A stretch of 28,451 nucleotides of DNA, taken from IMG/VR virus record IMGVR_UViG_3300042868_004570, positions 1 to 28,451 of that record; one strand, written 5' to 3'. The notes under the pieces were generated by a model. The model was given only the letters and a program-made list of their open reading frames with translations. It was not told the origin of the DNA and ran no database searches. The translations under genes and the position numbers were made by a program. Shown piece by piece: positions 5,064-23,233 of this stretch; the first letter of the stretch is position 1; the number at the start of each line of letters is the position of its first letter. This stretch comes from a virus.

Positions 5064-5488
5064 CGCATCGCCCTCCGCTGAGCCTTCAGGCTGGCCGGCT
5101 CATGGCCAATCAGCGTGAGCGCCGCGTTTAGCCGGGAACCGGCCTCAATGAGCCGCTGACTGGACTGCGAATAGCCCAGCTCGGTGGCCAACAATGCCGC
5201 CACCGTAATCTCGTGCGTGACCGCCTCAAGAATCTGCAACGCGGGGATTGCCTGAGGCCGCGCCTCGCCGATTCGCTCCGGCATGATGTCGCTGAACCGC
5301 AAGCCAACAGCGCCCAAGACCGCCTCCGTCTCGCACCCGCCAAAGCAGTGCAGCAGCACCCGGCCTTCCCTGTCCGTGATGGACAGACTGGGCGAACGGT
5401 CCTCGTGGGCGGGACACTTGGCCACCCACCGGTCCGGCCCGGTGTTGCGAACGCCCGTAAGCCGCGAAATGAGAATTTGTGCGCTCAT
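5060..5488 (-). CDS. CHC2-type zinc-finger primase-like protein
   Basis: A 142-residue protein. Its N-terminal third is a primase zinc-binding domain: WVAKCPAHEDRSPSLSI (C25, H28) followed by LLHCFGGC (C48, C52), the classic CHC2 arrangement that recognises the priming site. No TOPRIM polymerase domain follows; the C-terminal 90 residues are helical and unassigned. It may therefore deliver template recognition or regulate priming. The ATG at 5488 overlaps the upstream stop as ATGA, preferred over a start 18 bases earlier. The helicase follows directly. Confidence 0.8.
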   Translation of the reverse strand: MSAQILISRLTGVRNTGPDRWVAKCPAHEDRSPSLSITDREGRVLLHCFGGCETEAVLGAVGLRFSDIMPERIGEARPQAIPALQILEAVTHEITVAALLATELGYSQSSQRLIEAGSRLNAALTLIGHEPASLKAQRRAMR

Positions 5489-6228
5489 CCGTACTTCTCC
5501 ACCCATGCCTTGTGCGCCGGGTTGTAGTTCGTCTCACCGGGGCCAAGCCAGAACGGTGGAATCGGAGGCTTTGTGCCGTTCGTGCCATTGGTCTGTGCCC
5601 GAGCTGGTGGCTCGAAGATGCCGCGATAGCCAGAGGCAATGCTATGGCGCACAGAGGCGGCCTGTCGGTCTCCCAGTGCCGCGAGTTCGGCAGCGGCTGC
5701 CGGGAGCGATTGCTCCTTCAGCGGTTTGCTCAGACTCTGGCGGTAGGCAATCCAATCTGCCCAAGCGGTTAAATCTAATCCCGTCACGTTCGACGGAATA
5801 AAAACGGTAGCGAGCTTTCGCTCGCGTCCTTTCCCTTCCCTTCCCTTCCCTTCCTCACAGGAGGCTTCGCGAACATTCGCGAGGATTCGCGAGGCTTCCG
5901 CGAATGGCGGTATTTTGCTCGCGCTTGGCTTATCAATTCTCTGATGATTCAACCAGTTACGCACCTCAAGGTATGTATTACCTTCAGCCTCATAACGGAC
6001 AATGCAGTTTTCGCGCTCCAGTTCGGCGAGCCAGCCGTCAATCCGCTTTCCGGCGTCCTCATCGTAGGGGTAAAGAAGACTCGCGAGCATTCGCGAGGAC
6101 GCGCGAGCCCTCCCGGAATCGTCGCAGATAGTCCAAACAAGGATGAAACAAAGCCGCGCTTCACGGCTCACCCGACCCATGCTTTCGCTCTGGGGAAACT
6201 CGGGTTTGATGGTTCTGATTCTCGCCAT
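5485..6228 (-). CDS. Replication initiator / replisome organiser (O/DnaT-like)
   Basis: A 247-residue protein whose first 105 residues (starting MARIRTIKPEF and containing RLCFILVWTICDDSGR) match a common phage replication protein with an N-terminal winged helix. A Glu/Gly/Lys/Arg-rich linker (about 123-137) is encoded by a GGGAA pentamer tract. The C-terminal part carries a second helical region (LTAWADWIAYRQ) and a Pro-rich tail. GGAG lies about 7 bases before the ATG. Two clusters of TCGCGA-containing repeats are embedded in the gene, the arrangement of the lambda origin inside gene O. It probably binds these repeats and recruits the primase and helicase encoded next. Confidence 0.75.
   Translation of the reverse strand: MARIRTIKPEFPQSESMGRVSREARLCFILVWTICDDSGRARASSRMLASLLYPYDEDAGKRIDGWLAELERENCIVRYEAEGNTYLEVRNWLNHQRIDKPSASKIPPFAEASRILANVREASCEEGKGREGKGRERKLATVFIPSNVTGLDLTAWADWIAYRQSLSKPLKEQSLPAAAAELAALGDRQAASVRHSIASGYRGIFEPPARAQTNGTNGTKPPIPPFWLGPGETNYNPAHKAWVEKYG
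5828..5852. repeat. CCCTT pentamer (homopurine/homopyrimidine) tract
   Basis: Four or more consecutive CCCTT units form a pure pyrimidine strand (GGGAA on the coding strand), inside the replication gene where it encodes the charged linker. It lies about 14 bases from the first iteron-like repeat. Such tracts can form unusual DNA structures, so it may be part of the origin; that is inference. Confidence 0.7.
5866..5904. repeat. Iteron-like repeats, cluster A (candidate replication origin)
   Basis: TTCGCGA occurs at 5866, 5876 and 5886, and a variant TTCCGCGA at 5896, so the spacing is exactly 10 bases, one helical turn. Ten is not a multiple of three, so codon repetition cannot explain it. 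The cluster lies inside the replication initiator gene, as lambda's iterons lie in O. Confidence 0.65.
6081..6106. repeat. Iteron-like repeats, cluster B
   Basis: TCGCGAG at 6081 and 6091 and GCGCGAG at 6101 are again spaced by 10 bases. The core TCGCGAG is shared with cluster A about 200 bases away. Both clusters lie within the replication initiator gene. Confidence 0.55.
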
Positions 6229-9468: not shown

Positions 9469-9490
9469 ACAAAATTTGAGTTTGTGACTT

Positions 9491-9593
9491 GGCGCGGCGT
9501 GGCCGGGCCGGGCAACGCATGGCGTGGCCGGGCAGGGCATGGCAGGGCCAGGCACGGCCGGGCATGACGAGGCGAAACGAGGCAAAGCAAGGT
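9491..9593 (+). repeat. NNGGC pentamer array 1 (21 units)
   Basis: GGC recurs every 5 bases in perfect register from 9491 to 9591: 16 of 21 units are exact and five differ by one base (CGC, GAC, AAC, AGC, GGT). The two bases between vary. No gene is assigned here. The array ends in the same 22 bases as array 2. Confidence 0.9.
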
Positions 9594-9639
9594 GGCTATT
9601 TTGGGTGGGCGGCACAAAGAATTCGTTGATATGTGATTT

Positions 9640-9729
9640 TGCGCGGCGAGGCGAGGCACGGCGCGGCGAGGCTTGGCGAGGCCAGGCACGGCCTGGCGCG
9701 GCATGGCACGGCGAGGCAAAGCAAGGTGG
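9640..9729 (+). repeat. NNGGC pentamer array 2 (18 units)
   Basis: GGC recurs every 5 bases from 9645 to 9715 without a miss, flanked by TGC (9640), AGC (9720) and GGT (9725). The last units (AAGGTGG) serve as the ribosome site of the next gene. The 22 bases at 9712-9733 are identical to 9578-9599 at the end of array 1, so the arrays probably arose by duplication. Confidence 0.9.
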
Positions 9730-9731
9730 CT

Positions 9732-10277
9732 ATGAAAGGATTGGTTTACATCGCAGAGGTAGACGGGCTGCATAAGGTGGGTTACACGACCTTGGACATC
9801 CGTCGCCGCCAGTCTCAGATTCAGACAATGACGGCATTGGCTGACGTTGAAATCGTGATGACTATTTCTAGCAATGCGCCGGATTTGCTAGAAAGTGAAT
9901 TGCACAGATTGTTCTGGCATCGAAAATGCCGGAAAGATAAATCATCCGGCGAGTGGTTCAAGCTGACAAAAGAAGATTTTGATTTTCTCAAACTAAACTA
10001 CGAGGAAGCGCGAAATGAAGAAAACAAGCATTGCAGTTCAGTTGGTGGGGGTTCGCCCTTTGATGTTCGACAAGTACGCGGGGGATTTCAACACCGTTCT
10101 GCCGACTATCGAGAGGTTGTATCTGGACGACCAGCAGCGGCTGATTATTCCCGCAATCAACATCTATTCCATGCTTTGCGCGGAAAACACCAAGTCGGTG
10201 TGCAAGATGCTGATGGGCAAGCAGGGGAAGACAATCGGTCTCGGAATTGCTTCCTATACGTCAATCACGACCTTTGA
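9732..10277 (+). CDS. GIY-YIG-like (T5orf172-type) protein with out-of-frame tail
   Basis: The first 94 residues form a small GIY-YIG/T5orf172-like domain: GLVYIAEVDGLHKVGYTT (3-20), RRRQSQIQT (24-32), ESELHRLFWHRK (54-65) and SGEWFKLT (72-79). The family includes phage endonucleases and DNA-binding proteins. The ribosome site AAGGTGG comes from the pentamer array. After about residue 94 the frame continues 263 bases into the next gene in a different frame, adding about 87 residues with no domain. The original stop has therefore probably been lost, and the functional part ends near 10015. Confidence 0.6.
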   Translation: MKGLVYIAEVDGLHKVGYTTLDIRRRQSQIQTMTALADVEIVMTISSNAPDLLESELHRLFWHRKCRKDKSSGEWFKLTKEDFDFLKLNYEEARNEENKHCSSVGGGSPFDVRQVRGGFQHRSADYREVVSGRPAAADYSRNQHLFHALRGKHQVGVQDADGQAGEDNRSRNCFLYVNHDL

Positions 10278-10563
10278 AATTGCTGTGATGCGAAACGGCG
10301 TTCAGCTTTGTACTGCCGATTTCGGAACTCATATCCATGAGCATCACGCGGTAGCTAGAACAAAAAGCGGAACGCCAAACAACAAAAAGCGTCCGCTTGT
10401 TACCCTGCCTTGGTCGCTCGATTTCGTTATTGAATATATCGAAAACCCATATTGCACGCTCCACAATTTGCGGCAGGTTATGGAGCTCGGCGGTATTCTC
10501 GGCCTCGGCACGTTCCGGCCATTTTTCGGGCGGTTCAATATGACTCGCTTTGAGGTCGTTTGA
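10015..10563 (+). CDS. Uncharacterised phage early protein (TPLLMH-like family)
   Basis: A 182-residue protein with an N-terminal strand and loop, VQLVGVRPLMFDKYAG (8-23), then RLYLDDQQRLIIPAINIYS (about 37-55) and SVCKMLMGKQGKTIGLG. This order resembles a widespread family of phage early proteins with a TPLLMH-like start followed by YxDxxGxPxIP, whose function I do not know. The C-terminus has a Gly-rich LGGILGLGTFRPFFGRF, as in ferredoxin-like or RAMP-type folds; that comparison is inference. AGGA precedes the ATG at 10015 by about 8 bases. The GIY-YIG ORF overlaps it in another frame. Confidence 0.6.
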   Translation: MKKTSIAVQLVGVRPLMFDKYAGDFNTVLPTIERLYLDDQQRLIIPAINIYSMLCAENTKSVCKMLMGKQGKTIGLGIASYTSITTFEIAVMRNGVQLCTADFGTHIHEHHAVARTKSGTPNNKKRPLVTLPWSLDFVIEYIENPYCTLHNLRQVMELGGILGLGTFRPFFGRFNMTRFEVV

Positions 10564-21940: not shown

Positions 21941-22442
21941 TTTCGCTCCTGTTCGTCGCTTTCCAGTTTCAGCGTCGCCATGAGATAGGCGAAGTCGCTT
22001 TCCGGCATATCAAAAACTTGCTGGGGCAGGATGTGCAGCCGTAATGCCATTGCATAGATGCAACGCAGCTCCACATCCTGAGTTAGTTTTTTTCGGCGTC
22101 CTCGACAGAAACTGACGCCGTATTCATGGCGCTGACGATGCGCGACATGATTTCCGGGTCATATTCCGTCATTAGCTCGCGCTTTTCCGGCATCGCGAAT
22201 AGGCGCTTGGCGCCAGCATCACGCGCCCGAACGATGAGCGTCACCGCCATCGCCTCGAGGTCGAGCACCGTGTGGCCGTCCTCCTGCCGAGCCAGCAGGA
22301 AGATTTCCCGGCGCTCCTGCAAGGTCATGTCGGGCCAGTACCAGATGCTGGTATTCCATTCAGGGACCGGAATCTCGACCAGCGTTTCGGGCGAACGGCG
22401 AGCCTTAAACGTCGCCTTCGCCTGTTCTTTCCAGTGACTCAT
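21916..22442 (-). CDS. Tail assembly chaperone, -1 frameshift product (gpGT-like)
   Basis: Joining 22442-22086 to 21916-22086 by a -1 shift gives a 175-residue fusion: the 119-residue chaperone plus 56 residues (LTQDVELRCIYAMALRLH through ERKWQTQARR) ending at TAA 21918-21916. The shift site is A AAA AAC at 22092-22086. In lambda-type phages the minor fusion (gpGT) binds the tape measure and tail tube. The extension overlaps the tape measure start by 25 bases, as in other siphoviruses. An inverted repeat (22050-22063) about 22 bases downstream could stimulate slippage. Confidence 0.8.
22083..22442 (-). CDS. Tail assembly chaperone (gpG-like)
   Basis: A 119-residue protein starting MSHWKEQAKATFKARRSPETLVEIP and ending EDAEKN, the unshifted product. 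The length, position between tail tube and tape measure, and ending on a slippery heptamer identify it as the gpG-type chaperone that keeps the tape measure soluble during tail assembly. The ATG overlaps the tail tube stop (ATGA). The primary sequence alone would not place it firmly. Confidence 0.8.
   Translation of the reverse strand: MSHWKEQAKATFKARRSPETLVEIPVPEWNTSIWYWPDMTLQERREIFLLARQEDGHTVLDLEAMAVTLIVRARDAGAKRLFAMPEKRELMTEYDPEIMSRIVSAMNTASVSVEDAEKN
22086..22092 (-). promoter_or_regulatory. Programmed -1 frameshift site, A AAA AAC
   Basis: On the minus strand the codons GAA AAA AAC TAA contain the heptamer A_AAA_AAC in the correct zero-frame phase, one codon before the stop. Seven consecutive A lie at 22093-22087. 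A -1 shift opens 56 more codons. Confidence 0.85.
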
Positions 22443-22831
22443 GCGGTGCCTGTTGTCAGGACGCCGTTACCCACGAAGGAAAAGGCGATTTCCGTCACCG
22501 CCCCACGCGCCACAGTGCGGGTAATTTCAGTTACCAAAACGTCGCCGTAGTAGTAAACATCGCCCGTGGTCACGCCTTCGGGGTACAGCTTCAGCGCCAC
22601 GTTCGCGTTCGGAGCGATGGCCACCTGCCCGGTGGTGTCGGTCTCGTCCCAGTAAGCCGAGACGGAGCCGGACCAGCTCGTGATGGCCGTCGTGCTGTAG
22701 GTCTTGGCGGTATCGCCGAGGGTCGTGTCCTCGGCGTACTCGGCGGTGGCCGTGAAGTTAAAGCCAGTGACCTCGGCGACAGTATTCGCGCCGACCTTCA
22801 CCAGCCCTTCGGTGCCGTGATGATTTGCCAT
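22439..22831 (-). CDS. Major tail tube protein, copy 2
   Basis: A 130-residue beta-rich protein starting MANHHGTEGLVKVG, with a conserved TVARGAVTEIAFSFVGNG near the C-terminus. By hand alignment it is about 77% identical over its whole length, without gaps, to the gene just upstream (22841-23233). Its position (after the tail terminator, before the chaperone) and length match lambda-like tail tube proteins. AAGGAAG precedes the ATG. Differences concentrate in the middle (residues about 64-97). Confidence 0.78.
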   Translation of the reverse strand: MANHHGTEGLVKVGANTVAEVTGFNFTATAEYAEDTTLGDTAKTYSTTAITSWSGSVSAYWDETDTTGQVAIAPNANVALKLYPEGVTTGDVYYYGDVLVTEITRTVARGAVTEIAFSFVGNGVLTTGTA

Positions 22832-22840
22832 TTTTCTTCC

Positions 22841-23233
22841 TTAGACGGTGGTGGTGGACAGCGCGCCGTTGCCGACGAACGAGAAGCTGATTTCCGTCAC
22901 AGCGCCGCGAGCTACCGTGCGGGTGATTTCCGTCACGAGAGCGTTGCCGCTGTAGTAGGTGTCAGCCGAGGCGTAGCCTTCGGGGCAGAGCTTCAGGACC
23001 ACGTTCGAGCCGGTCGTGAGCGCCAGCTGGCCGTTAGTGTCGAGCTCGTCCCAGTAGGCGGTGACGCTGCCGGACCACGAGGTGATGGCCGCCGTGTTGT
23101 ACGTCTTCGCCGTGTCGGCGAGCGTGGTGTCCTCCGCGTATTCCGCGGTTAGGGTGAAGTTAAAGCCCGTGACCTCGCCCACCGTGTTGGTGCCGACTTT
23201 CACAAGCCCTTCAGTTCCGTGATGATTCGCCAT
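22841..23233 (-). CDS. Major tail tube protein, copy 1
   Basis: A 130-residue protein with the same MANHHGTEGLVKVG start and the ALVTEITRTVARGAVTEIS segment as the following gene. Either both are tube subunits (the tube may be mixed) or one has become a specialised end or decoration subunit. CAGGAG lies just upstream of the ATG; the two genes are separated by nine bases. It includes one Cys (KLCPEG) where the other copy has Tyr. Confidence 0.78.
   Translation of the reverse strand: MANHHGTEGLVKVGTNTVGEVTGFNFTLTAEYAEDTTLADTAKTYNTAAITSWSGSVTAYWDELDTNGQLALTTGSNVVLKLCPEGYASADTYYSGNALVTEITRTVARGAVTEISFSFVGNGALSTTTV

Follow-up and report, generated by a model that had tools for sequence, protein, structure and literature searches.

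What is the function of two long arrays of phased NNGGC pentamers in the genome of an uncultivated phage, and with which gene product do they belong? The arrays were found in IMG/VR virus record IMGVR_UViG_3300042868_004570, of which a stretch of 28,451 bases (the window) was analyzed; they are located between an ERF-YqaJ-SSB-like recombination cassette and a NinB/DUF1367 gene, and gene scans agree with an earlier note, made from the DNA letters, that had placed them directly after an ERF/YqaJ/SSB-like cassette. The locus very probably represents a phage-encoded VIPR system that comprises two candidate vrRNAs and a Vipr protein. The basis for this assignment is the anatomy of the arrays, the homology and predicted fold of the Vipr protein, the genetic linkage of arrays and gene, and the turnover of the guide letters.

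A 2026 preprint introduced VIPR as a phage-encoded, CRISPR-related, RNA-guided DNA-binding system (PMC13142463). Its Vipr component is a CRISPR-RAMP-like protein of about 20 kDa with a G-loop that binds vrRNAs composed of tandem GGY/NN repeats (reported repeat number, 9-16) and a constant 3' tail; the NN letters of the vrRNA recognise DNA, with one base skipped between pairs, and the system is presented as a noncontiguously reading relative, and proposed ancestor, of the CRISPR RAMP systems (PMC13142463). According to the main text of the preprint, predicted nucleases are present only in VIPR types III and V, described as enriched in defence islands (PMC13142463).

Array anatomy and statistics

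Array 1 (9491-9593) comprises 21 units and array 2 (9640-9729) comprises 18 units, and the 5-base register is kept with zero slippage in both, which bears out the earlier description of GGC recurring every five bases; some units are one- or two-base variants. Exact GGC is present in 16 of the 21 units of array 1, the variants being CGC (9516), GAC (9566), AAC (9576), AGC (9586) and GGT (9591), and with these five imperfect units array 1 may be decaying. Array 2 consists of TGC, 15 consecutive exact GGC units (9645-9717), AGC, and GGT. Both arrays terminate in the same 22 bases, CGAGGCAAAGCAAGGTGGCTAT (9578-9599 and 9712-9733), exactly as had been noted; the arrays of the relatives mostly end in a similar sequence, AAGGCAAGGC/T.

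Two candidate vrRNAs were delimited on the plus strand. Candidate vrRNA 1 (9487-9599; 21 NNGGC-phased units, five with one- or two-base variants of GGC) carries the guide dinucleotides GC GT CG CG AA AT GT CG AG AT AG CA AC CG AT GA GA, followed by its constant 3' tail (9578-9599, plus strand). Candidate vrRNA 2 (9640-9733; 18 NNGGC-phased units) carries the guide dinucleotides GC GA GA AC GC GA TT GA CA AC CT GC AT AC, also followed by the constant tail (9712-9733, plus strand), which here includes a Shine-Dalgarno-like AAGG and overlaps the start codon (ATG, 9732) of the GIY-YIG gene by two bases. The suggestion that the second array supplies the ribosome site of the next gene is thus confirmed.

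Period-5 GGC runs of 15, 9 and 5 units occur in the window, whereas runs of four or more units were obtained in none of 200 first-order Markov sequences simulated with the length and dinucleotide composition of the window; no comparable GGC array is present elsewhere in the 28,451 bases. For 420 guide units (window plus eight relatives of the clade), the entropies of the GGC columns were 0.14, 0.04 and 0.17 bits, compared to 1.88 and 1.99 bits for the N columns; hence, the statement that the two intervening bases vary freely is quantitatively right.

RNA folding of the window arrays was not unusual when compared to shuffled sequences (z = -1.55 and -0.14), and a structured RNA leader, as considered before, is therefore a wrong description of the array body. 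Folding also revealed no clear structure in the window tail, in contrast to the SUSP1 clade, where the tail is structured (pseudoknotted), and to some relatives. In four relatives, a hairpin with compensatory changes was observed 3' of the array downstream of vipr (L121, 6613-6675; L122, 6700-6782; L123, 5449-5507; L125, 6669-6727); this covarying hairpin is a candidate for a structured vrRNA tail, and it gave no Rfam match at gathering thresholds in any of the four. There were no Rfam families predicted within the window, and BLAST with the region, or with most of the window, retrieved no DNA relatives from phage records. The unit counts observed in L121-L129 were 15-33 per array, i.e. up to approximately twice the 9-16 reported for vrRNAs.

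Vipr protein

The vipr gene (10015-10563, plus strand; 182 amino acids) starts 280 bases downstream of the arrays and is predicted to encode a RAMP-fold Vipr protein with a G-loop region (GGILGLGTFRPFFGRF). The ORF was assigned to PHROG family 4652 (phrog_4652; E=3.5e-11), the family that also contains the experimentally tested Vipr protein of Escherichia phage SUSP1 (E=1.4e-96), and a profile of the window's Vipr family retrieved the PDB entry 36pp, 'SUSP1 Vipr protein', with E=8.4e-40; for the latter match the family profile was needed, since the single sequence retrieved 36pp weakly (E=0.01). The window and SUSP1 proteins share approximately 19% identity, and the residues that are invariant between them are G12, A114-R115, R126-P127, W133, the G-loop G159, G163, G165, R168, and G172.

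An AlphaFold model based on an alignment of 54 family sequences reached a pLDDT of 96.3; an earlier model from a shallow alignment (pLDDT 56) was unreliable and is superseded by it. All 50 PDB matches listed by Foldseek for the 54-sequence model were CRISPR RAMP-containing effectors, and VIA-align superimposed the model along its full length on Csm3-type chains (Z 13.4). The ORF was not assigned to any Pfam or NCBIfam family, there was no PADLOC match for the protein, and no Vipr protein was found in a scan of genome contigs. A search of 399 genomes of one order with the Vipr profile yielded one partial match, to the C-terminal part of an ORF in L181 (E=1.4e-8).

Linkage of the arrays with vipr

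Same-strand GGCNN arrays flank the Vipr ORF in all 11 viral-contig relatives (L121-L131; 53-58% identity); in the window both arrays are located upstream of vipr and none downstream, unlike in the relatives. At least 120 viral contigs matched the DNA pattern (GGCNN)x7, by which alone they were picked, and a Vipr-like ORF was detected in 83 of the 120 listed (59 in the first profile round) with an iterated profile seeded with the window's relatives and SUSP1. In 81 of these 83 contigs the nearest array is on the same strand, at a median gap of 18 nt. As controls, a Vipr-like ORF was found in none of 14 unrelated contigs fetched for another reason, reversed ORFs yielded nothing below E 0.35, and the SUSP1 record (KT454805) displayed GGY/NN arrays flanking its Vipr gene on either side, as published.

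The earlier note had suspected such tracts in other phages, and had listed a protein-binding array and an RNA leader among the possible roles; the arrays in SUSP1 and in the viral contigs bear out the suspicion, and a possible protein-bound RNA is likewise supported. A search for GGCNN arrays in viral contigs, as had been recommended, indeed recovered recurrent arrays; the association, however, is with the Vipr family, a decisive partner that had been absent from the note. The locus was singled out from the DNA pattern alone and VIPR was not named, which lends support to the pairing of arrays and protein. The (GGCNN)n scan is also a practical VIPR finder, with a Vipr-like gene in more than two thirds of the contigs listed. 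The other 37 of the 120 listed contigs (e.g. L005, L075, L076) contain long GGCNN arrays and no Vipr-like ORF in the fetched stretch; contig ends, a diverged Vipr, or another partner are possible readings.

GIY-YIG gene

The gene between array 2 and vipr (9732-10277, plus strand) encodes a GIY-YIG protein of the MUG113/T5orf172 type (Pfam MUG113, E=2e-11; T5orf172, E=7.5e-8), a candidate accessory (vap) nuclease, with the conserved domain at residues 1-85; the second copy of the 22-mer runs into its start codon. Motifs common to the window and its relatives are VYI, K(V/I)G, R, LHxxF, and GEWF. The domain is shared with other phage-encoded MUG113/T5orf172 proteins, from which the window gene differs by its repeated array-vipr position: a GIY-YIG gene is located between the upstream array and vipr in L121-L131 and also in the more distant L099 and L022, and in most relatives the array before vipr reaches the GIY-YIG start or stops a few bases short of it. 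In view of this repeated position, an accessory role is more plausible than free-standing homing, and the protein is, as judged from gene order, a probable VIPR accessory. No such gene was observed next to vipr in L041, L051, L057, and L088, and the clade's GIY-YIG profile matched only three of the 120 listed array contigs (L050, L099, L022).

GIY-YIG is not mentioned in the main text of the VIPR preprint (PMC13142463). With this locus, VIPR is extended to a group of uncultivated phages that have GIY-YIG partners; such a partner may mean a new variant. That the locus stands for a phage-encoded subtype of VIPR whose accessory protein is a GIY-YIG nuclease, which would give RNA-guided DNA cleavage from a phage, is a tentative and rather doubtful proposition; if true, the tail of the second guide doubles as the ribosome site of the nuclease gene.

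The GIY-YIG frame remains open for approximately 260 nt into vipr (10015-10277). Every relative that was checked, L099 and L022 among them, shows the same overlap, and in these relatives the frame extends 144-246 nt beyond a fixed vipr position. Four-fold sites in the overlap are only slightly less variable (0.43 vs 0.54), and the overlap is possibly coding in both frames.

Proposed function and target searches

Each array would give rise to a short non-coding guide RNA (vrRNA) of approximately 100 nt that consists of the GGC-NN tract followed by the constant tail. Copies of Vipr, a single-domain relative of the Cas7/Csm3 RAMP backbone subunits of CRISPR complexes, would cover the repeats, such that GGC is withheld from base pairing and the NN pairs are presented; one Vipr subunit per pentamer is our guess. 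The NN letters would then read DNA as NNxNNxNN..., following the published one-nucleotide-skip rule; x would mostly fall on the wobble position of codons. DNA bound in this way, which would probably come from a competitor (another phage, a prophage or a satellite), would be transcriptionally silenced. The GIY-YIG protein, whose gene lies between the guides and vipr, might additionally cleave it, though nuclease action of this protein is likewise a guess. Transcription, RNP assembly, the skip rule and silencing are here inferred by analogy with the SUSP1 and P. fulva experiments of the preprint.

The 10-unit NNxNNx patterns of both arrays had no match in the viral contigs, and the 8-unit patterns had nine and five matches that extended by at most one more unit, which is chance level. 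A 9-unit pattern yielded 25 matches in genome contigs, none of which exceeded 10 consecutive units or a total of 11 of the 18 units (near chance), and no guide target was detected in 399 genomes of one order at up to three mismatches. When 361 guides of the fetched contigs were compared to the 1.2 Mb of the same contigs with skips of 0-3, no convincing target was obtained, and the top matches were those of low-complexity guides. The missing targets are weak evidence against a function, as the collections are sparse for uncultivated phages. If the skipped base of guide 2 is taken as the wobble base of a codon, the guide is compatible with a protein segment such as A-(D/E)-(D/E)-T-A-(D/E)-(F/L)-(D/E)-(H/Q)-T-L-A-(I/M)-T, which is a reading and not a target. 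Two guide strings are now available for direct testing.

Guide turnover and alternative explanations

The earlier note had offered two origins of the pattern, selection for the GGC register, or growth by replication slippage followed by drift at the free positions. Among relatives with 80-91% identical vipr DNA, the end-anchored NN identity between homologous arrays was 0.12-0.46 and typically 0.2-0.35, i.e. mostly near chance, and the longest stretch common to any two arrays was four consecutive NN units, while each of the GGC bases is kept in 98-99.5% of units. A neutral microsatellite would be expected to drift in all five columns, yet the GGC columns are spared (0.04-0.17 bits, vs 1.9-2.0 for NN); moreover, the strand and position of the arrays relative to one protein family are conserved across dozens of diverse contigs. 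Small changes in unit number do occur, since one array has three AAGGC-type units more in one of two nearly identical contigs (L129, L130) than in the other; as an account of the locus, neutral slippage is nevertheless highly improbable. Fixed GGC together with near-random NN points to replacement of guides under a fixed scaffold, and hence to selection for the register; as far as can be judged from sequence, the NN turnover is as expected of guides. It is equally hard to credit that the arrays act at the DNA level, as iterons or as recombination or packaging sites to which the ERF, SSB-like or GIY-YIG proteins bind, despite their position directly after the ERF, YqaJ and SSB-like genes and an SSB-like gene seen by eye just upstream of a second locus (L022): a fixed word would be expected of such sites, yet 40% of the positions are free, the GIY-YIG profile matches only three of the 120 listed array contigs, against 83 with Vipr, and the probable replication iterons of the window lie elsewhere (5820-5910). 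The recombination site that had been considered is not supported; the arrays accompany Vipr in all 11 close relatives and in 83 of the 120 array contigs listed.

The VIPR reading itself has to accommodate the negative target search, the 15-33 units per array (vs 9-16 published), the five imperfect units of array 1 and a window tail in which no structure was found. A VIPR-derived remnant, in which guiding was lost and the arrays now serve mainly as a translation leader for the GIY-YIG gene, would agree with the imperfect units of array 1, the negative target search, the ribosome site in the tail, and the lack of an array downstream of vipr. Such a remnant is unlikely, given that vipr is intact (53-57% identical to relatives, with all G-loop residues kept), that array 2 has 15 consecutive perfect units, and that the two tails are identical to the base.

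Comparison with known systems

The candidate VIPR locus of the window shares with the type II VIPR of SUSP1 (PMC13142463; PDB 36pp; KT454805) the small RAMP protein of one PHROG family, same-strand GGY/NN arrays near the gene, a constant 3' end, the phage location, and a two-gene locus. It differs in that the repeats are GGC (mostly GGT in SUSP1), the GIY-YIG gene is upstream of vipr (the presumed vap1 gene of SUSP1 is downstream), and both arrays are upstream of vipr with no structured tail evident, whereas SUSP1 has arrays on both sides. With the Csm3/Cas7 backbone subunits of class 1 CRISPR systems, the window Vipr shares the fold over the whole protein and the G-loop; in contrast to those systems, the guide information in the window sits in interrupted dinucleotides. 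The tandem repeat scan at the locus showed phased pentamers only and no CRISPR repeat-spacer array, and among the ORFs around it, scans with Pfam and PHROG identified recombination genes, GIY-YIG and NinB, with no Cas protein and no cas operon.

Other features of the window

A TTCCC pentamer run (5820-5910) and TTCGCGA iteron-like repeats (6079-6112) are located inside a replication-initiation-like ORF (5485-6228, minus strand), and represent a probable phage origin. Furthermore, two adjacent minus-strand ORFs (22439-23233) derive from a 402-bp tandem duplication with 76% matches.
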